Positions 1,057-13,830 of a stretch of DNA of 38,497 nucleotides are shown here, piece by piece (the stretch's first letter is position 1; every line of letters starts with the position of its first letter). The stretch is from Lachnospiraceae bacterium (GTDB lineage Bacteria > Bacillota > Clostridia > Lachnospirales > Lachnospiraceae), in NCBI GenBank assembly GCA_017540265.1, contig JAFYBJ010000048.1:1-38497 (forward strand). The letters are read 5' to 3'. A model generated the notes under the pieces. It made no database searches and was not told where the DNA came from. It saw only the letters and a program-made list of their open reading frames with translations. Both the position numbers and the translations under genes were made by a program.

Positions 1057-1926
1057 TTACATCTCCGAATACAGCGTATTATCATTCCGGTAATATACGT
1101 CATTTTGTATATCAACGGTCTCTCTTGTGATATAGACGATCTCGTTATTATCCGGATCATCGTCTTCATCTGCCTTTACCACAGTAACTACCGTCTTTAC
1201 GGTTTTTACAAGAAGCTTATCTTCGGGGCCGCTTCCGTCATCCACAGTCACCTTGACCGGTTTAACCGTGAATTCAAGCCTTACCTCATAGCCGTTGTAA
1301 AATTCTTTTGAAAAATGCTCCTCGGCTCCCCTTTCCACAAGAGTGCCGTTACGGGATGAAAAAAGCATTCCGAAATCGCTTGCTATATCTATCACATCAG
1401 CATAAGCATTCTGATATGCAGGCTGTGTCTCGGGGGCATATTTTGAATAATAACGATAAGTAAGACAGCCGGCGGGCAAGGCAGCCGGTTCCTCATTTGT
1501 GATCTTGCCGCTCTTAACTATGACAGTCCCCTCGGGCAGCCCTCTTGTATCCAGCTGAACCATAAACGCCCCATCGCTTGCGTTTGAAGGGAGAAATTCG
1601 ATCCCTTCCCCGCTTATCTCGATCCCATCCGCAGCAGCTATGCCTGTTCCGTCCTTATCCCTTATTTTTATATATCCCGAATGTCCCGCCACGGATGAGG
1701 AAGGCTGCATGGTGCGTATATCATTTTTTATTTCCGCCAGTACGGTATCCGCCACGGTAAAAGCCGTCATAAGCCTCTGCTTCGCATAATACTCTCTGAA
1801 GGAATAGGAAATGATGGTCGAGGCCCCTATAAGGAATATGCCTAAGAGTGCAAAGCTCACAATAAGTTCCACCATAGTGGAACCTCTGTTGTTTCCCTTT
1901 AGATTTTTTACTGAATGCTTTTTCAT
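1057..1926 (-). CDS. Minor pilin-like protein with prepilin N-terminus (PilW/GspJ-like)
   Basis: The product of about 289 residues starts with MKKHSVKNLKGNNRG followed by STMVE and a long hydrophobic stretch, so it carries a prepilin cleavage site with Glu5. The remaining 240 residues form a globular domain with many beta-type and acidic stretches, larger than a major pilin and typical of a minor pilin such as PilW or pseudopilin GspJ; that subfamily call is an inference from size and order. An in-frame ATG three codons earlier (1935) is possible; neither start has a strong ribosome site, and translation is probably coupled to the gene ending at 1941. It is the last of four closely spaced pilin-like genes. 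Confidence 0.75.
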   Translation of the reverse strand: MKKHSVKNLKGNNRGSTMVELIVSFALLGIFLIGASTIISYSFREYYAKQRLMTAFTVADTVLAEIKNDIRTMQPSSSVAGHSGYIKIRDKDGTGIAAADGIEISGEGIEFLPSNASDGAFMVQLDTRGLPEGTVIVKSGKITNEEPAALPAGCLTYRYYSKYAPETQPAYQNAYADVIDIASDFGMLFSSRNGTLVERGAEEHFSKEFYNGYEVRLEFTVKPVKVTVDDGSGPEDKLLVKTVKTVVTVVKADEDDDPDNNEIVYITRETVDIQNDVYYRNDNTLYSEM

Positions 1927-1940
1927 TCCATCCACAGGTA

Positions 1941-2324
1941 TCAGTGCAGATTAATGGTGCTGAATACCGTTATCCCTCTGGACTCGGTCTCACCCTCTGC
2001 ATTCTCATATGTCACATCCTTGGCAACCGGCTCCACCTCATAGGTAAAGGTTCTGAAGCGATATGTCGCTTTTCTTCCCTCTGTCGCAATGTCAAAAGGT
2101 CCCTTTTCCCCGGAGAGCACATCTTCCCTGCCGTTAAAAAGCAGGACAGCCTTTTCCTGATAATCCGAATGCGCCACATCCGTATCCTTTGCCTTTCCCA
2201 GCATATTCGAGGCAAAACCAAGGCAGCCCGAAAGCACGCCCGCGCAGATCATAAGTATAAGAAATGCTATTATGACCTCGGACATTGTCATTCCTTTATT
2301 ATTTTTTAAATATCCGATCCCCAT
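1941..2324 (-). CDS. Small minor pilin-like protein with prepilin N-terminus (PilV/GspI-like)
   Basis: The start chosen gives 127 residues: MGIGYLKNNKG, then MTMSE and a hydrophobic helix. The Glu5 and the Gly before the cleavage point are present, although Met replaces the usual Phe. This ATG lies one base after the stop codon of the preceding gene, which suggests coupled translation. A longer frame reaching 2426 would overlap that gene by 100 bp and place 34 extra residues before the leader, which is unlikely. The globular part is short, about 90 residues, as in PilV or GspI. It probably caps or primes the filament with its neighbours. Confidence 0.75.
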   Translation of the reverse strand: MGIGYLKNNKGMTMSEVIIAFLILMICAGVLSGCLGFASNMLGKAKDTDVAHSDYQEKAVLLFNGREDVLSGEKGPFDIATEGRKATYRFRTFTYEVEPVAKDVTYENAEGETESRGITVFSTINLH

Positions 2325-2325
2325 A

Positions 2326-2952
2326 TCAGTAATATGCCACCCATTCCATGCCGCCGCTATATACCGGCTGCCCATGCTCATCGGTCCCGGTCTCCGGCTT
2401 TGTATAACGGAAACGTTCCGTAACACAGGAAACCGCCGTTACATTCTTATCCTTTGTAGGGTCGTCATCCGGAGCGAAATTTTCTATCTTCACTGTAAGG
2501 ACATAGATATTATTATCCTCATCATCCATATCCTCATATTCCAGCGATTTCGTAAGAGTGAGCCTTATGGGAAACATCCCTGCATCAGGCGAAGCGGCAG
2601 GCAGTGTAACCTTATAATCCGTACCATTGCTCACAGGATAATTCCTGTTATCCCTAACGAACCCGTAGATATAGCTTTCAAGGCTTCCCTGCTTAAGGTT
2701 TTCAGCCTTTTCCCTGTCGGTAAGGTTGTATCTTAATGTCTCGCCAAAGGAATAAGCCTGCTCGTAATACCTCTCCGCCCAGGCTTCATCATTCACCGTT
2801 GCAAACATCTGATAGGATACAGTAAGCACGGCAAGACAGAGTATCATGATTATGGACATGACACAGGTAACTATTATCATCGCAGCGCCTTTATCATCAA
2901 GCGCTGCTCTCTTAAGCTTCCCGCATATGTTTTTCCTTACGTTACTCTCCAT
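2326..2952 (-). CDS. Pilus-associated membrane-anchored protein lacking Glu5 (PilX/GspK-like)
   Basis: The 208-residue product has a basic N-terminus ending in DDKG, followed by AAMIIV and a hydrophobic segment to about residue 48. The Gly and hydrophobic helix resemble a prepilin, but position 5 is not Glu. Loss of Glu5 is a known trait of GspK, the pseudopilin at the filament tip, and the region after the helix begins with an acidic helix as in PilX-type proteins. AAGG lies six bases before the ATG. The gap to the giant gene upstream is 8 bp, so the two are almost surely cotranscribed. The GspK/PilX parallel is inferred from context and the missing Glu5. Confidence 0.7.
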   Translation of the reverse strand: MESNVRKNICGKLKRAALDDKGAAMIIVTCVMSIIMILCLAVLTVSYQMFATVNDEAWAERYYEQAYSFGETLRYNLTDREKAENLKQGSLESYIYGFVRDNRNYPVSNGTDYKVTLPAASPDAGMFPIRLTLTKSLEYEDMDDEDNNIYVLTVKIENFAPDDDPTKDKNVTAVSCVTERFRYTKPETGTDEHGQPVYSGGMEWVAYY

Positions 2953-2960
2953 CTTTTACC

Positions 2961-5900
2961 TTAAGGGATCTCCACAGCAGGGGGAGATACAAACACGCTT
3001 TCATCCTCCATTACTGCCTTTATGCTTATGGATGCATTATAATCACTGTCTTCCGAAGTACTGCTGTAAACAGTTCCTGTCTCAGTATCCGTGAAATCAA
3101 ACTGTCCCGCAGCTACAGGAAGTATAAGTTTAAAGGTTCCGTCAGGATCGCAGCCTATCTTAAGATCCAGATCCTTAAACAGATATCTTATGCTTTCCGT
3201 GCCCTGATTGATCACCACTACGCCCCAGATCGCATTCTGCATATCGGGAACTGCAAGTGTGGCGCTCTCTTCGGTAACATCAGCACTTCCAAGCTCATTT
3301 CCTTCCGCATCAGTCATACGGAATATCTTACTTCCGTTCTCTTCTTTAATGCTTATTATCACAGAAGCCTGTGCCGCATTTGAATGCACCGATCCGCCGG
3401 ATACCTCTGAGGTATTCGCTGCGACCGTGATCTCATAATGATCGGGATATCCGTCACTTCTGCCAAAGCTGTATGAAGTCATGGGAATATATCCGCTCAC
3501 ATTTCCATCAAAGGTAGATTCATCAAAGGTCTGTGTGCTTGCCTCTGCGGAATATAGTGCTCCATTTGCACTGGCATCCGTTACCGCTTCCGTAACAGTC
3601 ACATCATCAAGCCTTACCTTCGGCACCGTAAGAGGAGAGCCGACAGTATATTCTGAAACAGCCCTGTTATCGCCGGTTCCCGGGGCCCTGCGCACAAAAG
3701 GTAACAGCACCTTTCCCGCATAGCTGTAAGCCCAGTCGGAAGCGATACCGGGTATCCATACGGAATATGCTTCCGAACCTTTGGTAAGAGTGATGGTGCC
3801 TCCGGCGCCAAAGGAAGAAGCCTCCGGATCCGCAAGCATTTCCTCAACGGCTGCTATCTGGCTGCTGCCTTCTAAATCTGCAATACCGGCAGCCGCTGCC
3901 ACTGCCTCATCCATGCTGTCAAACCATATACCGTATACGGGATAATTATATCCAGCGCTGCTGTCATCATCGCTTATAAGCGCATCAAGACTGTTAGCCG
4001 TATCCATGAAGGCTGTTTCCGTAAGCGCTTCTTCATCTCCGAAACTGAATGCAAAAGATACCACCGGTTTAACAAGCCTGCTTAAGATGGTTACTTCTGT
4101 CATATCCCCGTCAAGTGAATCATACCATCTGGTGCTGTCCTCGGTAGCAAGCGCTATGATAAATATGTTTACGGCACTTCCTTCATACTTTTCAAGATCC
4201 ACTACCGCAAAGGTATCCTCTATCCTGTCAAGAAGGACTGTCCTGTCCCCGTTGCTGTCCATAAGCATCACCCTGTATCCGGCACATGCCGCGCTTCCGT
4301 CTTCATTTTCCTGAACCGAGGCATTCCACTGCAGTCTGTATTTAAGCTCCTCCCGGGAAATCTGGCGCACATCCGGCTTAAGCAGGGAATCCAGCCTTTG
4401 CTTAAGACCGGTCCACGTATGCTCATCGCTGGAAGCAAGGCTTCCGGCAGTTTCAGTCTCCCCTTCAACCCTTACGGTGAAGGCATCATAGTTCCACTCA
4501 TCTCCGCCAAGTATAAGGCTGTAAAGACCGGTATCCTCATCCTTTGAAGATGAAGCATCCTGTCCCTCAAGGACAGTGATCTCACCGGCATTATTAATGC
4601 GGTAACTTCCTATATCCGCCTGGGCGGTCAGATTTCCGTCAGCATCAAAAGTCTTTCCATATACGGAAAGCTTATATGAGGAATAGTCACCGTCATTCTC
4701 AGCCTTCCATGATACGGTATAATTTAACTTTTCGCCCTCGCCGTCATCGGTAAATGCCGCAAGAGCGCTGCCGTCTTTATCCTTATCGGCAAGTGTCACT
4801 GCCGAAAGCGTCTGCATGTCTGCATTGAAAAGGATCTGCCTGTAATTGCCATTATTTTTTGCCTTTGTGTAATATACGGCCCTGGTCTTCTCTGCAAGCT
4901 TGTCATAATAGAAATAATAATATGTACCCGAGCCGCTTACATTTTCAGCAGTCTGCGACAGCCTGTCTGCGGGGCTTAAATCAGCTATGGCACCCAGTTC
5001 TTTTACCACAGGGCTGTAATAGCATACCTCTTCGCCTGAGGTAAGATCCGTCACAAAGCCCGTAGATCTGTCCTTAGGCTTTCCGTCAGACCAGGCCTCA
5101 TTTTTCGAGCAGCTTATGTAAGTGTTCACGGGACAATCCGTTCCGTATCCGCAAAACCAGGTCACCACCCTGTAATCATGATAATCCGAAGGATTTATAC
5201 CTGAAACGGAATCAGCCGTATTAAGCTTTACGGTAACAGCACTGTTATTTCCGAAAAACAGTGTATCCTTGGATGCCAGCGTATATGTACCGCCATCGGA
5301 ATTCTTTACGGCATAGATCTCAGTACGGAACATTTCATAGCCGTAACGGCCGCTTCCGTTATACGACCACACGGCAGCCCTCATGGTGGCATTGAAATCT
5401 ATGTTTCCATCCTCATCAAGCTTAATATCTGCGTCTGTCTGCTCTATTCTTCCCTCTTTGGTGTAAGCATCATGCCATATGCGGTTATTGTCCTGAGATG
5501 ACCAGGCAGGAAGAGCCATACTCTCTGAAAATTCCGCAGAGTCATCAAAGCCCTCGCAGCTCGCCTTTGCCGTTGCTGTCATTACCCACGTACCCTCAGA
5601 GCTGTTATTGTTTGCCGTACGCACCATGACACCGTTTGCATCAAGCTTTGCATTATGATGCGGCAGTGCAGCTATATATGCATCAAAAGCAGTTTCCGAG
5701 GGATCCTTACCCTCTATCACTATCTCAGGCGCCGTCACATCATTTATACCGTCATAGAGCTTGTCGATCAAAACGGTCACCTTCCAGTTCTTTGCCGGAT
5801 CGGCATTATAGAATGCTGCATATTCATCCGCATTTATAAGATGTGCGCACCATTCATACTCGCCGTCGTCATCCGCATCGAAACGTACTATCTCAATATC

Positions 5901-8900
5901 AGGCTTTGGCAGATAGCCGACGATATCCGAAAATCCCTCGGCCGGAAGGCTCATGGTTCCGTTTATGGATCTGCCCCTGACATTTACAACTACGTAATAT
6001 GTTGTGGTTTCATCAGATACCACCGCCGGAAGATCCAGGATAGCATCACAGTTATATACATTCTCTGTATACGAATGTATGGACTCTCCACCCTGCTGCC
6101 TTATCCATTCTGTCGTAATGCCGTCTTCTGTAAGAGCCTGTGCCTTAACATCCGCAGTGGGGATCTTGTATACATCCACATTCATGACATAATAAGCAAG
6201 ACCGTCCACTCCTATAGGCTGCCAGGATGCGACATATTCCTCATCCCTTGCCGAGTACTCAACCTTAAGATCAGTTACATAGCTGTCCGCCATCCTCTCA
6301 TCGGCGATGCTTGCAAAGAACCTTCTCATGTCCGGATCAGTGATATCCTCCGCCCCCGGGATACTGTCAGATTCCCTCTTCTGATAAACAGAAAGGTCTG
6401 CTTCTTTTTCATTTTCATTAAACCAGAGAAGTATGGGTTCCTCCATCTCCGTGATGACATTGTTTTTCTTCGTCCTGACTCCCAATGTTTTCTCATCCTT
6501 AACCCAGAGGAAAGGATTCTTTACAAAGTCAGATTCTTTCTGATACATATTGTTATTGCCAAGATCATAGCTGCTTATGAAATAATCCCCGTATTCACTT
6601 CCGGCAGCCTGCCCTGCCACCAGCCTGTGGGCATTTATCTGTCTGTCAAGTACACCCGTATCCCCGGCTTTCATAGTATCGTAATCATATACGTTGGGAT
6701 AATTTCCCGTACTGCCCGTGGGCGTACTGAGTGCTGCCATTATCCCTCTGGCGTTCCTGTCCCTTGTGAAACTGCTGGCCACCATATAATAATTTCCATA
6801 GCACATCTCAGTACGCATGGATCTTCCCTTTGATCCCCAGAAGGGATCATTGTTGCACCAGCACAGCCCTCCTCTGTCCTGGTCGCCTGTAAATTCAATG
6901 ACACTGAAGCAGTTCTGCATCACGGTATATCCGCCGCAGCCTGCCACAGCTCCCCAGTCGGTGGTATTATCCCCGCTCCAGTCCACAAGGGTTCCGGTAT
7001 TTACACCACTCTTGCCATACGCTACAAGCTCCCCGTTAAGCAGCTTCTTGCTGTATGTGATACGGTTGCCTAATATACCACCTGTCTTCGCCGGCTTTAT
7101 GGATGTATTCTGTGCCGTAACAAAGAAATCCGTGCAGTAATTCCTGCAATAATTGATATTAAGTATAAGATTGTCCGCATTCGCCCCGTTTACGCTATCC
7201 TTGCTCGGATCCGGTCCTCCCGCATAGGATACTATCCCGTTTGCCTTTGAATATGCTATAGCATCCGCCTCATAGCCGTTTACGCAGTCCACCACATTTA
7301 CATAATATACTTCATTGCTTTCCCTGGTATATATTTCCGATACAATGCCCGCTGTCTCGTTTGCTATGGCCCAGCCGGTTGTTCCGGTATCTATAGCCGG
7401 ATCTATATTATGATTTACCCTGTGGTTTATACGTCCGTGATTCTGGCAGGATAATACATTTACGCTCTGCCCGGATTTTATCCCGCTTATGCTGGAGATT
7501 ATGCCGCCTACGGTACCGTGACCCTCCTGCTGGAAATTGGTACGGAGCGTGCCGTAATTAAAGCAGTTGTCTATGATACCGCCGTTGCTGTTCCACTTTG
7601 CTATTATGCCGCCCACATTATGGGAATGGTTATCAACCACATCACCTATGTTTACACAGCCATGCACACGCCATCCGGTATCACTTTCATTATACTGGCT
7701 GCCGATCACACCTCCTACAAAATAAAGGGATTTTCCTCCTTTGCTGTTGCTTCCCGTATTTATGTAATTATTCACCGTAAGGCTGCCTTCATTTCCCTCT
7801 TCATCCACATTACGCCTTACGTAAGCGCAGTTTACGTTATAAGCCACCACCTTCTCGGATTCATTCTGTCCGATGATGCCTCCTACTGTAGCGCTGATGT
7901 CGGTGATATTCGAGCATATGTACCATTTTCCGGAAGCGCAACCAACTACCGAGCCCTTGCTCCCGTTACATCCTGCTATACCTCCAAGATGTCCGAAGCC
8001 CTCAGCAGACATCCGTATCTGTGCATCAAATTTATCCTTTTCAAGGACTGTCACGTCATTATTTTCATCCACCGTTATATAATCCCTGAGAGCATAGAAT
8101 ACGCTTTCCGTATTGGTATAGGAAAGCTCTTCATTCATAATATCCACGCCGGTATAATAAGCATCCTCGTCACGCTTTCCGTATATCTGATCGTCTATAT
8201 ATTTCTGTGACAGCATCTGCTCCGCGCAATTGCCTGAGGTGGCATTGACAGCATCACTTCTTGAGGAATTCAGTGAATCATAAACATACCTTGAAATACT
8301 CCTTTTTATGGGACCGTCTTCTTTTTCACCAAGCTGCTTAGCGCTCATTCCCAGATCCGTGCCATAACCGCAGAAGCTTAAAACACCCTCGTTTAAACCT
8401 GCGATACCGCCTGCAAGTCCCTTTCCAAGCTCAACATAGGCCTGACTGCTTCCCTGCTTTAAGATGGCGCAGTTCTTTATAACGCCGCCGCTCTCATTAT
8501 GCCCGCAGATGCCGCCAAGCTTCATGCTTATCTTATTCTGGCCTTTACCGTCCTCATAATATCCGACAGCGCTTATCCTTCCGCCGTCCAGGCTGCAGCG
8601 GTCAATGGTTCCGTCCGAACCGTCATGGCTTCTGTTGACCCCCGCTATACCGCCATAGGATCTGGTCTTTTCGTTTCTGCTGTCCAGCTCATCCTTTATC
8701 ACGCCCTCGTAATAAACCTGCCTTACAAGACCGCCGTTATTATCTCCGACTATGCCGCCTAAATATTTAACATCCTTAAGGACGCTCTTTGAATCAAAAT
8801 TCACTTCGACCTTAAGATCCTTACTGTCACTCCCCGACTTTTCATAAAGGGTTATGACCGCATCTTTGCCCCTGTTCTCACCTACGGCTCCGCCAAGTGC

Positions 8901-11900
8901 AAATTCGGTGCTCCCTCCCGAATAAGAAACATCTTTACCTGTAGTACCGCCTTCAAGCCTTCCTTCATTTAATCCGACAATGTAGCCTAAAGATGTAAGA
9001 TGATCGCCCTGTATGACCACCTTTTCATCTGAGTCGGTACCCGCGCTGCAGAGTCTTATGATTCCGGAAGGATCATTTATTGAAGCTACGATGCCGCCGG
9101 AAGATGCATTTAAGGTTATCACAGGAACAGTCCCGTTCTTCTCGTCCACGCTGCATTCAAGCAAAAGTCCCGCATTACGCGCGCATATACCGCCGGCATA
9201 GCCCAAGGTCGCCGTTACTTTTCCGTGATCGATACTATCCTCTATTTCGCTTTCTTTTGTTACAAGAGGCACTATGCCTCCTGCATATCCGCCCCTTGCC
9301 GCTGCGGAAGAAGCGGTAACGGGACCGTAATTTTCTACAAGGCTTATCTTCTTTCCGCCTTCCATTCCGCCTGCGATACCGCCGGCATAGCTTACGGCAT
9401 TTACCACTGCATAGCTCTTAAGCGTTAAGCTTTCGCTTCCCTTTATCTCACCGTCGGCAAGGTATCCTACAAGGCCTCCGGCATAAGAACCGCTTGCCTT
9501 TACATTTATGGCTTCAGCGCCTGTATGGTTTTCGGTGACAGCTTCAATGCTGCCGCCCTTATCATTTCTTCCAATGAGTCCGCCGGCTTCATTCCTGCCC
9601 TGAACGCTCAGTGAATATTGCAGATAGAAAGCTCCGCCGCTTTCGACCACACCGTGATTGCGACCCGCAAGGCCGCCTACTTCCTCATCTCCGGCAATGA
9701 TGCCGTATGCCCTGCAGGCAGTAAGTATTCCGCCTTTTCCTGACGAACCGTTCTTTATGCCGCGTATGTTCATTCCGGCTATACCGCCTATGCGGTCTGC
9801 TCCGGCTACTGTCACGGATCTGTCATTTATGCAGCCCTTTATGGTGCCGGCATAATACTTATAAGTTCCGGTCTGTCTTAAATCCTTTTCATCAGCTGAG
9901 CCGAAATTAACGCCTGCGATACCGCCCGCTATATTCCTTCTGGAATTTCCTATGGATGCCTCATTGCGGCTGTTTATTATAAGTCCCTCATTAAGCCCCG
10001 CTATGCCGCCAAAGCCGTCATTTAAGGTTTCTATCACGCCTTTGTTTGCGCAGCTCTCCACTACCGTAGCATGTGGATTATGGCCTATGATGCCGCCTAT
10101 GAGACCGTTCTTTGCGGTGGTCTCCACTCCCACGTACCCCGTAAGATCCATCTTTGCGGCATCTGCGGTCTCTGCCAGCTCCGTTACACGCCCGCTGTTT
10201 ATTGCATTCTTTATTATCACGCGGGAATCTTCATCATCAGCACCTATAAGACCACCGCCAAAGGTGACAGCCCTTACTTCCCCGTTATTGAATTCACCTT
10301 CCGTACTGCCGCCTATGGTAAGGATGTATGCGGATGCATTACCGAGTTTCGAGTAATTCATCTTCCAGATGCCGTCCGCATTCCTCTGCATTATGTTCAT
10401 ATACCAGCCGTCATCACCTATGGCTGTATATCCTTCCTTTGTTCCGGATGCGGGAAGGCTTCCCGAGCCCTCTGTTAACGCCTGGAAACCTGCGATACCG
10501 CCCACAAGGCTCTTTCCGCTTACTGCTGATGAACGGTTGCTGTATTTTATATCCATTACCGCATCGGACTTCATCTGAAGTATATTTCCTCCGATGACGC
10601 CGCCCACGGCATATCTGCCTTCAACACTTGTCGTGGATATGCGTATGCTCTGTCCGGAAAGGATCTCGGGAGCAAGGTTGAGTCCCACGAATCCGCCCAC
10701 GAAATCGCCTCTTCCGTATACGTTGCCGGCAACATATTCCTTCTCTGTCCCGTCGCCTTTGAGTTCTATCTCACCGTTTATGCCGTTATACCCTACAAAA
10801 CCGCCCACATTGTTTTTTCCAACGGCCAGTGTGGCAATGGCGCTGGATTCCATCTCGGTGCTGTTGAACTCTATCCTTCCGTATTCATTTAAACCTATCT
10901 GTCCGCCCACATTGGAGCCTTCATAAGCCCAGGTATCCTTTACCCTCTTATACATCACCTGGCCGTAGTCGTTTATATTAGCCCCGCAGTTCCTTATCAC
11001 TGCAAGGCATGAGACATCTTTGCTTCCCGTAGTATCCGGAATGCCCGAATTCTTTCCGGCAATGCCGCCTATGTTCACGCCGCTTCCCGCAACAGCAGCT
11101 CCGCTCCTGCAGGCATTTATTATGCTGCCCCTGCAGTTCATGCCTGTAATGCCGCCTATGCAGTTATTTCCAAGAACATAAGATGCATTATCCGAAGAAT
11201 TTACGGTAACAACAGATACCCCTGCAGGCACCTTTGAACTTCCGAGTATGCCTCCAACATTATCAAAGCCTGTGATATATCCGCCCTTAACGGTGCTGCA
11301 GCCCGTCATATATCCGTCATAGGCAAAGCCTGCTATACCGCCCACAAAGACTCCCCTGCTGTCATAATCGAGAGCCTTCCTGCCTGCACCGGTCTTTCCG
11401 TTCCCTGTCGTATATATCGAAAGTCTCTCCCTTGCTGCGGTCTCATTCATGGAAAAACTGCAGTCGGCGATCTGTACGCCATAAGCAAACCCTGTTATAC
11501 CTCCTATGTAAAGACCTTCATGTGACCTGTAAAGAGGATCTTCCTTTTCCATGTCGGATATGCCGTATCTTGCTTCCTGCCCGGAAAAGAGCGGTTCAGA
11601 TGCATTGGTTAAGCGATCCACAATACCTGTATATGCGGCATTCTCGCAGTTGATCACATGCATATGTGCCCCATCTGCATGTGAAGGAGAGCCGTCTGCC
11701 TTTATATTTCCGGCTATGCCGCCCGTAAACATATTCCCCGTTACCACGGCACCGTTCTTTACCGAGCGGCTTCCCACAGACTTTAAATAGTTTCCCATAC
11801 CAATGGAAACCGCTTCCGTTTCACCGGCTTTAACTCCGATGACCGCATTATCCGCCATAAGAGCATACCCGGTCACTCCGCCTATGCCCACAGGTATGTA

Positions 11901-13811
11901 ACCGTCGGTTTCTATGGTGTCATAAGTAAAGGGCTTTTTGCTTCCTGCATATACAACCTTTCCGTCAACCCTTCCGGCAGTCAGGATCCTGTCTGTTACC
12001 GAAGACGCATCGGATTCCGTAACACCGCATACCATGCCAAATCCCATTGCCTTCGGGCATACAGCCGATGAACCTTCGGGATATTCACCTGCGAGGGTAT
12101 TTATAAGATCCTCATCATAAGTAAGGGTTCCCTCCGCCTTACATTTATCCGAAAAAGCAAGCTGCTTTAAGCTTCCTCTGTTAAGACCTGCGATCATGCC
12201 GGCGCCTGCAAGATTAACAGCGCTCTCCCCTATCTTTAAGCTGCAGGCATCAATATATACTTCTTTTATGCTTCCTTCATTCACGGAAAAAAGCCCGGCA
12301 TAGCGGGCTATATTCTTTGCGCTCTCTCCTTCCGAAAGTCCTGAAACATCTCCGTAATGCTTTGCAGACTGCTCGCTTATACGGTAATTTGCAAGAACTT
12401 TTCCGTTTCCGTCAAATACCATTCCCCCGGGGAAGATCGGAACTGACGGAAACACTGTTTTATCCGCATCCTCCGGATCTGCATTTACTGCGGCATTCTT
12501 AAGCGAATATACGATATTATCTTTCCAGTCGATATCACCGGACATCTCATATCCTGATGTATCCTCATGATGATATCTTATATTGCTTATATGACGGCTC
12601 TTTGAAAGGCAGACCTTTGCACCACCGTTTCCCGTAGCGAAAAGGTCATTCTCCACATTTGTTTTTTTCGGCTCTTCAACCGTATATTCACGGGCCACGG
12701 CCGCAGCGGGCAGAGGCTCCACCCCTACCTTTGCATATAAGTCCACAGGCTTGTTTCCCAGTATCCTTGTGATGCTTAAGCCGGTATTTTTCTGAAGCAT
12801 ACCGTTTTCTATCATCGCATAGGATGCGGCATCCATCATGGAATCCAGTTCGATCACAAACATGCCGCCGCTGTAATCGATGATATACGGAAGCGTATAA
12901 GTATTTCCCTGTGTAAGAGCTCCGGGAAGGCTCTTTCCCGAAGGAAGGACAGCCATCTCGGTCTTTAAATTTAAGACCTTTCTCTTTTCCGTCTGTCCGA
13001 AAAGGCCGTCTGAAACAGGACTGAAGGAGATGGTAAAGAGCTTTACATCATCGCTCTTATCGTAAAAAGATATGGTATATGCGGTATCCTGCTCCTGAAG
13101 CCTTGAATTACTTGAAAAACGCAGATAGAGAGTTTCATCGTTTACAAGTGCAGGCCTGGATGAAAGCTTAAGCTTCACGGCATCAAGTGCTGTCTTATTC
13201 ACCTGATCCATGGCATAATACCCTACCGCCAAAGGCGACCTTTCCGCTTCTGCCCTGCTGTCCTTATTTATGCTGTATATGCCCAGCCTGTCGTCATTTT
13301 CAGCCTGCGCATATTCAAAACCTTCTGTCCAGCTTCCGTAAAAAACGCTGTAAACCTTCTTTGAAGTGGTATCAAACTCAATGCATATGGAACCGTTTAA
13401 TACCTCTGCATCAAAAATATACGGCGCCACAAGATCAAAAAGTTCGGAAGAAACGCCGGAGGAATAAGCCCCCTTTGAAACGGTTATATATGAATAATCA
13501 TGATCGATAAAAGAATTGTCTTTTTCAACAGGAAGCCCGTAAACACTTTTGTCAGCGATCTGCGTGGCAGCAGGCTTTATGCTGTTCTTAAGATACTCAT
13601 CGAGAATGCCCTGGCTTTCCATGTATGAAAAAGCAGACTGGGCCCCGTAATAAATGGACTGGGCATTTTCGTTATTCTTAACAAATTCCGTATGCCTTAT
13701 CCAGCCGGTAACACCCCAGGCAGACACGCCAAGAAGGATAACGATTATCACCAGGACAACCATCATCTCCACCAGTGTAAAGCCTTTATTCCCTGTCTTT
13801 TTCATACTCAT
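2961..13811 (-). CDS. Giant prepilin-type surface protein with GLUG-like beta-solenoid and Fn3-like segments
   Basis: One uninterrupted frame of about 3,616 residues. The N-terminus is MSMKKTGNKG, then FTLVEMMVVLVIIVILLG: a prepilin cleavage site with Glu5 and a pilin helix. Residues to about 460 form a mixed domain. From about 465 to 2,340 there are some 35 Gly-rich repeats of the type GGIAGxN, each followed by short segments with xxxCxN and Gly/Ser, matching GLUG-type repeats of surface adhesins and expected to build a beta-solenoid. From about 2,500 to 3,300 several stretches resemble fibronectin type III strands (for example VASWQPIGVDGLAYYV and YRLQWNASV). The C-terminus lacks an LPXTG or a hydrophobic anchor, so attachment would be through the pilin helix. 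ATG 13811 is preferred because AAGGTGG lies 10 bases upstream; ATG 13820 and GTG 13817 are alternatives. I infer a filament-tip or minor-pilin adhesin. The ligand is unknown. Confidence 0.85.
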   Translation of the reverse strand: MSMKKTGNKGFTLVEMMVVLVIIVILLGVSAWGVTGWIRHTEFVKNNENAQSIYYGAQSAFSYMESQGILDEYLKNSIKPAATQIADKSVYGLPVEKDNSFIDHDYSYITVSKGAYSSGVSSELFDLVAPYIFDAEVLNGSICIEFDTTSKKVYSVFYGSWTEGFEYAQAENDDRLGIYSINKDSRAEAERSPLAVGYYAMDQVNKTALDAVKLKLSSRPALVNDETLYLRFSSNSRLQEQDTAYTISFYDKSDDVKLFTISFSPVSDGLFGQTEKRKVLNLKTEMAVLPSGKSLPGALTQGNTYTLPYIIDYSGGMFVIELDSMMDAASYAMIENGMLQKNTGLSITRILGNKPVDLYAKVGVEPLPAAAVAREYTVEEPKKTNVENDLFATGNGGAKVCLSKSRHISNIRYHHEDTSGYEMSGDIDWKDNIVYSLKNAAVNADPEDADKTVFPSVPIFPGGMVFDGNGKVLANYRISEQSAKHYGDVSGLSEGESAKNIARYAGLFSVNEGSIKEVYIDACSLKIGESAVNLAGAGMIAGLNRGSLKQLAFSDKCKAEGTLTYDEDLINTLAGEYPEGSSAVCPKAMGFGMVCGVTESDASSVTDRILTAGRVDGKVVYAGSKKPFTYDTIETDGYIPVGIGGVTGYALMADNAVIGVKAGETEAVSIGMGNYLKSVGSRSVKNGAVVTGNMFTGGIAGNIKADGSPSHADGAHMHVINCENAAYTGIVDRLTNASEPLFSGQEARYGISDMEKEDPLYRSHEGLYIGGITGFAYGVQIADCSFSMNETAARERLSIYTTGNGKTGAGRKALDYDSRGVFVGGIAGFAYDGYMTGCSTVKGGYITGFDNVGGILGSSKVPAGVSVVTVNSSDNASYVLGNNCIGGITGMNCRGSIINACRSGAAVAGSGVNIGGIAGKNSGIPDTTGSKDVSCLAVIRNCGANINDYGQVMYKRVKDTWAYEGSNVGGQIGLNEYGRIEFNSTEMESSAIATLAVGKNNVGGFVGYNGINGEIELKGDGTEKEYVAGNVYGRGDFVGGFVGLNLAPEILSGQSIRISTTSVEGRYAVGGVIGGNILQMKSDAVMDIKYSNRSSAVSGKSLVGGIAGFQALTEGSGSLPASGTKEGYTAIGDDGWYMNIMQRNADGIWKMNYSKLGNASAYILTIGGSTEGEFNNGEVRAVTFGGGLIGADDEDSRVIIKNAINSGRVTELAETADAAKMDLTGYVGVETTAKNGLIGGIIGHNPHATVVESCANKGVIETLNDGFGGIAGLNEGLIINSRNEASIGNSRRNIAGGIAGVNFGSADEKDLRQTGTYKYYAGTIKGCINDRSVTVAGADRIGGIAGMNIRGIKNGSSGKGGILTACRAYGIIAGDEEVGGLAGRNHGVVESGGAFYLQYSLSVQGRNEAGGLIGRNDKGGSIEAVTENHTGAEAINVKASGSYAGGLVGYLADGEIKGSESLTLKSYAVVNAVSYAGGIAGGMEGGKKISLVENYGPVTASSAAARGGYAGGIVPLVTKESEIEDSIDHGKVTATLGYAGGICARNAGLLLECSVDEKNGTVPVITLNASSGGIVASINDPSGIIRLCSAGTDSDEKVVIQGDHLTSLGYIVGLNEGRLEGGTTGKDVSYSGGSTEFALGGAVGENRGKDAVITLYEKSGSDSKDLKVEVNFDSKSVLKDVKYLGGIVGDNNGGLVRQVYYEGVIKDELDSRNEKTRSYGGIAGVNRSHDGSDGTIDRCSLDGGRISAVGYYEDGKGQNKISMKLGGICGHNESGGVIKNCAILKQGSSQAYVELGKGLAGGIAGLNEGVLSFCGYGTDLGMSAKQLGEKEDGPIKRSISRYVYDSLNSSRSDAVNATSGNCAEQMLSQKYIDDQIYGKRDEDAYYTGVDIMNEELSYTNTESVFYALRDYITVDENNDVTVLEKDKFDAQIRMSAEGFGHLGGIAGCNGSKGSVVGCASGKWYICSNITDISATVGGIIGQNESEKVVAYNVNCAYVRRNVDEEGNEGSLTVNNYINTGSNSKGGKSLYFVGGVIGSQYNESDTGWRVHGCVNIGDVVDNHSHNVGGIIAKWNSNGGIIDNCFNYGTLRTNFQQEGHGTVGGIISSISGIKSGQSVNVLSCQNHGRINHRVNHNIDPAIDTGTTGWAIANETAGIVSEIYTRESNEVYYVNVVDCVNGYEADAIAYSKANGIVSYAGGPDPSKDSVNGANADNLILNINYCRNYCTDFFVTAQNTSIKPAKTGGILGNRITYSKKLLNGELVAYGKSGVNTGTLVDWSGDNTTDWGAVAGCGGYTVMQNCFSVIEFTGDQDRGGLCWCNNDPFWGSKGRSMRTEMCYGNYYMVASSFTRDRNARGIMAALSTPTGSTGNYPNVYDYDTMKAGDTGVLDRQINAHRLVAGQAAGSEYGDYFISSYDLGNNNMYQKESDFVKNPFLWVKDEKTLGVRTKKNNVITEMEEPILLWFNENEKEADLSVYQKRESDSIPGAEDITDPDMRRFFASIADERMADSYVTDLKVEYSARDEEYVASWQPIGVDGLAYYVMNVDVYKIPTADVKAQALTEDGITTEWIRQQGGESIHSYTENVYNCDAILDLPAVVSDETTTYYVVVNVRGRSINGTMSLPAEGFSDIVGYLPKPDIEIVRFDADDDGEYEWCAHLINADEYAAFYNADPAKNWKVTVLIDKLYDGINDVTAPEIVIEGKDPSETAFDAYIAALPHHNAKLDANGVMVRTANNNSSEGTWVMTATAKASCEGFDDSAEFSESMALPAWSSQDNNRIWHDAYTKEGRIEQTDADIKLDEDGNIDFNATMRAAVWSYNGSGRYGYEMFRTEIYAVKNSDGGTYTLASKDTLFFGNNSAVTVKLNTADSVSGINPSDYHDYRVVTWFCGYGTDCPVNTYISCSKNEAWSDGKPKDRSTGFVTDLTSGEEVCYYSPVVKELGAIADLSPADRLSQTAENVSGSGTYYYFYYDKLAEKTRAVYYTKAKNNGNYRQILFNADMQTLSAVTLADKDKDGSALAAFTDDGEGEKLNYTVSWKAENDGDYSSYKLSVYGKTFDADGNLTAQADIGSYRINNAGEITVLEGQDASSSKDEDTGLYSLILGGDEWNYDAFTVRVEGETETAGSLASSDEHTWTGLKQRLDSLLKPDVRQISREELKYRLQWNASVQENEDGSAACAGYRVMLMDSNGDRTVLLDRIEDTFAVVDLEKYEGSAVNIFIIALATEDSTRWYDSLDGDMTEVTILSRLVKPVVSFAFSFGDEEALTETAFMDTANSLDALISDDDSSAGYNYPVYGIWFDSMDEAVAAAAGIADLEGSSQIAAVEEMLADPEASSFGAGGTITLTKGSEAYSVWIPGIASDWAYSYAGKVLLPFVRRAPGTGDNRAVSEYTVGSPLTVPKVRLDDVTVTEAVTDASANGALYSAEASTQTFDESTFDGNVSGYIPMTSYSFGRSDGYPDHYEITVAANTSEVSGGSVHSNAAQASVIISIKEENGSKIFRMTDAEGNELGSADVTEESATLAVPDMQNAIWGVVVINQGTESIRYLFKDLDLKIGCDPDGTFKLILPVAAGQFDFTDTETGTVYSSTSEDSDYNASISIKAVMEDESVFVSPPAVEIP

Positions 13812-13830
13812 GTCCACCATGCCACCTTAT

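Follow-up and report, generated by a model that had tools for sequence, protein, structure and literature searches.

The stretch of DNA analyzed here (the window) covers positions 1-38,497 of contig C26 in a Lachnospiraceae draft genome (1.9 Mb, 67 contigs, ~73% complete), from a bacterium related to rumen members of this family. On its minus strand it encodes P0001, a protein of 386 kDa that begins as a type IV pilin and continues into a long repeat region predicted to be a solenoid. We think it reasonably likely that P0001 belongs to a monoderm type IV pilus as a giant, modular minor pilin, placed in the likely H slot of the tip complex and serving as a stalked adhesin.

A prepilin start on a giant reading frame

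The frame runs from 13820 to 2961 and, counted from its first ATG, has 3,619 codons (calculated pI, 4.6). An earlier note on this DNA had named no strand and had given about 3,616 residues; the giant size stands, whereas that count corresponds to a start at the methionine at residue 4. A ribosome-site-like GGTGG was seen by eye 8 bases ahead of the third in-register methionine, and from the sequence the probable start is residue 6, giving the leader MKKTGNKG.

The N_methyl profile (PF07963) matched P0001 with 28.9 bits (cut-off, 21.2), in agreement with the prepilin site noticed earlier (KG/FTLVE, with Glu at mature position 5, E18). The leader G and this E are invariant in an alignment of 15 giants, and the leader is the only part of P0001 that passes Pfam cut-offs. 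P0001 thus has the marks of a type IV pilin, i.e., a class III signal with a hydrophobic stretch, a predicted long N-terminal alpha-helix (AlphaFold2 model number + 11 = protein number) and a neighborhood of pilus genes, and a pilin start on a frame of 3,619 residues agrees with the suggestion of a very large minor pilin. Its sequence suggests that a prepilin peptidase would cleave it. A motif scan of P0001 revealed no LPxTG, in keeping with the lack of a cell-wall anchor stated in the earlier note, so wall anchoring of this type was rejected. A promoter scan upstream of the giant gene gave nothing clearly exceeding shuffles.

Operon context and likely position in the pilus

Downstream of the giant gene lie, in this order, a K-like pilin without Glu5, I-like and J-like pilins with Glu5, and a major-type pilin (Table 1). 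The K-like protein had no NCBIfam match and no significant Pfam match, and the I-like one had weak NCBIfam matches to PilV/XpsI, well under cut-off; the real start of the latter is probably inside the listed open reading frame. P0001 is the only minor pilin in the window operon besides these three, and we therefore suggest the H slot for it. In the published model (here and below, literature statements refer to excerpts of the papers), the HIJK minor pilins form the pilus tip, K lacks Glu5 and caps the tip, and filament growth starts from this end; modular pilins whose extra modules are adhesive are likewise modelled at the tip. By analogy with this model, the set of Glu5-less K-like, I-like, J-like and major pilins in the operon makes a tip position of P0001 likely.

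Of 51 loci scanned for this arrangement, 46 were testable (≥700 bases downstream). A Glu5-less K-like pilin was detected within 700 bases downstream of the giant in 34 of the 46, and close to the giant in 41. The I-like pilin also lacks Glu5 in three loci (L046, L093, and L096). The operon is intact in relatives, and in many of them pilC, pilM, pilN/O-like and pilB genes (named from sequence by eye) are found downstream. The window start (1-200) is a contig edge inside the pilus operon, and pilC-, pilM-, pilN- and pilB-like genes open another contig of the same genome (C31, locus L083), which fits an operon split between the two contigs.

Alternatively, the giant could be a minor pilin that is distributed over the filament length or stays at the cell surface. 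Raynaud et al. (PMC8179133) consider a filament-body location possible for modular pilins with a flexible linker. However, Glu5-less K-like and I/J-like pilins often adjoin the giant, which is the arrangement of a tip complex, and the steric cost would presumably be high if many subunits bore an appendage of 3,500 residues. We regard a location away from the tip as unlikely.

A predicted GLUG/M26-type solenoid behind a conserved N-terminal module

Past the membrane helix, P0001 has a family-specific N-terminal module (hereafter, N-module), a predicted beta-sandwich, the sequence RHISNI and then the repeat region. R, H and N of the RHxxN motif are invariant in a 15-row alignment, and the stricter form RH[LIF]xN[IL] was found in 32 of 47 giant frames. 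We counted 36 GG-I-x-G-like motifs in P0001 with starts at residues 507-2246 (500 protein shuffles: mean 2.4, maximum 8), close to the ~35 GGIAG-like repeats reported before. Their number exceeded that in all of 50 shuffles in each of the 47 giant frames, and among the 1,024 motif intervals from these frames, 48% were 24-40 residues and 26 were shorter than 24. Autocorrelation of hydrophobicity along the solenoid showed no peak.

Structure prediction for residues 12-1100 yielded a beta-helix. Foldseek's 1,000 best chains were re-aligned to this N-terminal model with VIA, and the best 50 rows are considered throughout. Among them the best structural match is to IgA1 proteases, and the M26 rows score far above lyase rows; the modelled part of the solenoid is, as predicted, a parallel beta-helix of the M26/GLUG type. 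The GLUG assignment made earlier is thus upheld by the predicted structure, whereas the Pfam GLUG profile (PF07581) stayed sub-threshold in P0001 (best 18.8 bits; cut-off, 20.5) and passed the cut-off in two relatives, L046 and L062. The VIA rows barely cover the head of P0001, and GspH, FimU and ComZ had no match among them, a result that excludes none of these. A sequence search of solved structures with P0001 returned a single match (E = 0.057), taken as chance. Modular pilins in the sense of Raynaud et al. combine a pilin module with an extra module that is not pilus-specific, as the M26-type beta-helix of P0001 is, and this extra module takes a direct part in a pilus function, which in P0001 would be adhesion.

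The Fn3-like segments described in the earlier note were not recovered: no Pfam fn3 match was obtained at E ≤ 1, and the model of the C-terminal region is all-beta with a mean pLDDT of 49. From this model the region possibly consists of beta-sandwich domains. Its profile matched nothing in the solved-structure search.

A beta-helix could also be an enzyme, e.g., a polysaccharide lyase or pectinase at the pilus tip that cuts plant or capsule polysaccharide, with no stalk. The structural ranking of M26 above lyases argues against this, as does the lack of a lyase or glycosidase family among the Pfam matches of P0001 (14 relatives had only two sub-threshold matches to sugar-related domains), and an array of 36 similar repeats whose loops vary resembles a scaffold more than a single active site. 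We consider an enzyme of this kind improbable. The match to IgA1 proteases raises the further prospect of a pilus-borne M26-type protease; Peptidase_M26_N was matched by 1 of 15 giants, and Raynaud et al. (PMC8179133) list an architecture of pilin plus IPR011493 as a predicted M26 peptidase. Against it, no HExxH zinc site was found in P0001 nor in the 20 relatives scanned alongside. We take IPR011493 to be the GLUG motif, and the part of the IgA1 proteases matched by P0001 to be their beta-helical, not their catalytic, domain. A protease is therefore highly improbable.

A recurrent family of giants with a conservation gradient

A genome search with residues 1-460 of P0001 gave matches at E ≤ 0.001 in 40 of the 98 genomes of relatives. 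Many were ordinary pilins caught through the helix, and about 30 sit in frames of 1,560-4,540 residues. A profile built from alignment A2 (20 rows), which covers the N-module but leaves out the membrane helix, matched 40 of 299 family genomes (39 of 298 genera), 23 of 285 order genomes from five families, and 4 of 398 genomes at the phylum scale, where the two outside the family have frames of 369 and 2,182 residues. The longest frame per genome reached at least 1,400 residues in 33 of the 40 genomes from the family and in 15 of the 23 from the order, and the layout, for which the earlier note had proposed a survey of Lachnospiraceae, does recur. Among the seven shorter family cases, five (L099-L103) have an intact frame of 783-1,008 residues that contains 4-5 motifs, one has an in-frame stop (G243) and one has a 200-residue frame (G223). 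The longest frame of all has 7,664 residues, 88 GG-I-x-G-like motifs and the pilin start GFTITE (G250, contig C19, L086/L087). The 47 giant frames represent 45 distinct ones, as L070 repeats L044 and L077 repeats L043. In a tree of the 45 N-modules the window giant clusters with eight Lachnospiraceae relatives (support, 100/99).

A separate genome collection revealed the pilin start in 20 of 20 loci, with 14 closed frames of 1,994-3,545 codons and six that run off the contig. These loci are chiefly from uncultured Lachnospiraceae, together with Diplocloster agilis ASD5720, D. modestus ASD4241 and Lachnospiraceae YSB2008, which we take to be cultured strains. Rumen or omasum origin is stated for four of the 20, and the RUG and RUI series are presumably rumen genomes. 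The 3,545-codon frame (L063, Lachnospiraceae UBA1066) is 31% identical to P0001 across residues 11-3473 (blastp, composition statistics off) and is also the top match for the solenoid and C-terminus with composition statistics on. Since a separate genome carries a homologue of this length, the unbroken frame described for P0001 is not an assembly accident. An artificial fusion of a short pilin gene with a gene for an adhesin, whether from an assembly error or an overlooked frameshift, is conceivable in a draft of 67 contigs at 73% completeness but is ruled out in practice by these separate genomes.

Because blastp without composition statistics inflates E-values for Gly-rich repeats, conservation along the protein was taken from composition-adjusted BLASTP. 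At E ≤ 1e-3, the N-module (residues 30-470) matched 43 of the 44 other giants, the solenoid 26 and the C-terminus 10, with no matches to shuffled giants. The N-module is conserved, the solenoid less so, and the C-terminus least.

We also compared the distribution of the N-module with that of the pilus machinery. PilM_2 (PF11104) was discarded as a marker because its matches (143 of 299 genomes) seem to mix several PilM/FtsA-like proteins, and the MshEN-type PilB motor was chosen instead. The latter was present in 123 of the 299 genomes, among them all but two of the 40 that carry the N-module (38; exceptions, G197 and G291; Fisher p = 1.5e-14, not corrected for the relatedness of the genomes).

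Feature coordinates and further pilin loci

Table 1 Features of the giant pilin gene and its operon in the window.
Feature	Position	Strand	Remarks
Giant minor pilin gene (P0001)	2961..13820	-	3,619 codons + stop; similar-length homologue in separate genome (L063)
Class III prepilin leader, residues 1-13, predicted cut before F14	13782..13820	-	PF07963 28.9 bits
Pilin alpha-1 helix, residues 16-69, Glu5 = E18	13614..13775	-	AlphaFold2 helix 5-58
Family-specific N-terminal module past membrane helix (A2), residues 41-277	12990..13700	-	
Predicted beta-sandwich, residues 218-395, head-to-solenoid region	12636..13169	-	
RHISNI (conserved RHxxN motif), residues 409-414, immediately ahead of solenoid	12579..12596	-	
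Predicted GLUG/M26-type parallel beta-helix, ~residues 416-2400, 36 GG-I-x-G motifs	6621..12575	-	Modelled for residues 12-1100 only
Variable acidic C-terminal region, ~residues 2401-3619	2964..6620	-	Matched by 10/44 giants; low-confidence model
K-like (PilX/GspK position) minor pilin, 208 aa, KGAAMIIV, without Glu5	2326..2952	-	
I-like (PilV position) minor pilin, KGMTMSE	1941..2426	-	PF07963 23.7 bits
J-like (PilW position) minor pilin, 292 aa, RGSTMVE	1057..1935	-	PF07963 22.6 bits
Major-type pilin, 151 aa	198..653	-	PF07963 39.2 bits; GspG-like, sub-threshold

Several other loci are recorded here in their own right. Giant pilins occur in tandem in L106 (G255, contig C36), with frames of 3,222 and 3,167 residues. 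Two genomes of one genus have another kind of large pilin-start protein upstream of the giant (L054, 13800-18473, 1,557 residues; L055, 14719-18696, 1,325 residues), and in L044 (12665-16302) the I- and J-like pilins are enlarged to 579 and 629 residues. The genome of the window has a second type IV pilus cluster on contig C11 (L084). It encodes a PilT-like ATPase, a pilin of 531 residues and a K-like protein of 693 residues that lacks Glu5; no giant pilin was seen in this cluster. Contig C47 of the same genome (L085, 4863-8204) encodes a protein of 1,113 residues whose start resembles a signal peptide and not a pilin leader. It contains GLUG repeats, one of which passes the Pfam cut-off, and so shows the same repeat type with a different secretion route.

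Comparison with known systems

The closest comparison is with PilB and PilC of Streptococcus sanguinis (PMC8179133 and PMC9934059), which share with P0001 a class III start with Glu5, a pilin with a grafted C-terminal module, an operon with a Glu5-less pilin, and a monoderm host. They are ~50 kDa each, compared with 386 kDa, and have a vWA or lectin module where P0001 has a long beta-helix and variable tail; sequence likeness was considered for the helix only. The excerpted survey of PMC8179133 counts 264 architectures and cites 860 residues as the most extreme multi-domain case, and its pilin plus M26-family (IPR011493) architecture may overlap the giant family. ComZ of Thermus thermophilus (PMC6561018) is likewise a pilin with a beta-solenoid and has been argued, on structural grounds, to be at the pilus tip. 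Its solenoid (~380 residues, ~60 Å) is inserted in the pilin fold and is closest to an ice-binding protein, whereas that of P0001 comes after the pilin module, is predicted to be M26/GLUG-type and has about five times the length. ComZ serves competence by binding DNA, and its host is a diderm.

Compared with the HIJK sets (FimU/PilV/PilW/PilX; GspH-K), the window shares I-, J- and Glu5-less K-like pilins plus a further minor pilin, but the candidate for the H position is more than ten times the size of an ordinary pilin. With the tip adhesin PilY1/PilC, P0001 would share the role of a very large tip effector presented by a minor-pilin complex; PilY1, however, is a non-pilin with a beta-propeller (PF05567). 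From M26 IgA1 proteases and GLUG-repeat proteins P0001 differs in having no HExxH, 36 repeats and a pilin N-terminus. The "new type" of the earlier note is accordingly narrowed: modular pilins have precedents, as does a pilin with a solenoid (ComZ), and what is new relative to the papers searched is the size, the recurrent family and the largely fixed operon slot. In the open-licence literature searched (excerpts that also include PMC10191384, PMC3672088, and PMC6916266), neither such giant pilins nor this operon slot were found described.

Discussion

Several observations weigh against a giant adhesive pilin as the H subunit at the pilus tip. The order K-J-giant occurs in 7 of the 46 testable loci (one lineage in and near the genus), and no K-like pilin was found in five (L049, L057, L071, L106, and L108). 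In some relatives (e.g., L045, L050, L054, L055, and L098) the giant has another Glu5 pilin immediately upstream, so that it is not always the sole H candidate, which weakens that assignment; further pilins of the window operon may also lie beyond the contig edge. The N-terminal model spans residues 12-1100 only (mean pLDDT, 68.5; pTM, 0.65), the all-beta C-terminal model is unreliable, and solved-structure profile matches of the head cover essentially the helix, with no match to GspH/FimU. No recognisable ligand-binding domain was found in P0001 with Pfam. PilY1 (PF05567) was above cut-off in 0 of 299 genomes and not found in P0001, but the 14 control genomes gave no match, and this negative thus has no positive control.

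With these points counted, we still favor a tip-borne giant pilin, which could work as follows. Prepilin peptidase would cut P0001 ahead of F14, and its N-terminal helix would pack into the filament alongside the operon's K-like pilin without Glu5 and its I- and J-like pilins, in the place held elsewhere by a small H pilin (FimU/GspH). Given that filaments grow from the tip down, the minor-pilin complex would be built first and end up at the tip. A stiff beta-helical stalk would project from the pilus by roughly 30-40 nm, an estimate that applies beta-helix geometry (24-33 residues per coil, rise of 0.48 nm) to ~2,000 residues. The fast-evolving terminal region at the stalk end would bind a surface, which might be plant fibre, a mucus glycan or another cell. 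Pilus-mediated adhesion to cellulose has been published for ruminococci, and plant fibre is thus, by analogy, one possible ligand. P0001 would then do the job of the non-pilin adhesin PilY1 of diderms; the excerpted PMC9934059 describes PilC/PilY1 as absent in monoderms.

Giants of this kind are easily missed as core pilus parts, because the PilFind criteria (PMC3244431) require proteins of <350 residues and Pfam recognises the leader of P0001 only. Monoderm type IV pilus adhesion without PilY1 has been described as poorly understood (sources including PMC9934059), and the giant family provides a concrete and widespread candidate for it, with named strains among its carriers. We put forward more tentatively, and with some doubt, that the Lachnospirales pilus tip is unlike any described, with a giant of ~1,900-7,600 residues as the H subunit itself, replacing PilY1. 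If so, priming complex and adhesin would be one polypeptide, perhaps among the largest pilins known, and reach and specificity would be tuned through repeat number and swaps of the C-terminal region. If the tip model is true, the pili of these bacteria would carry stalks tens of nanometres long, whose length could be changed.
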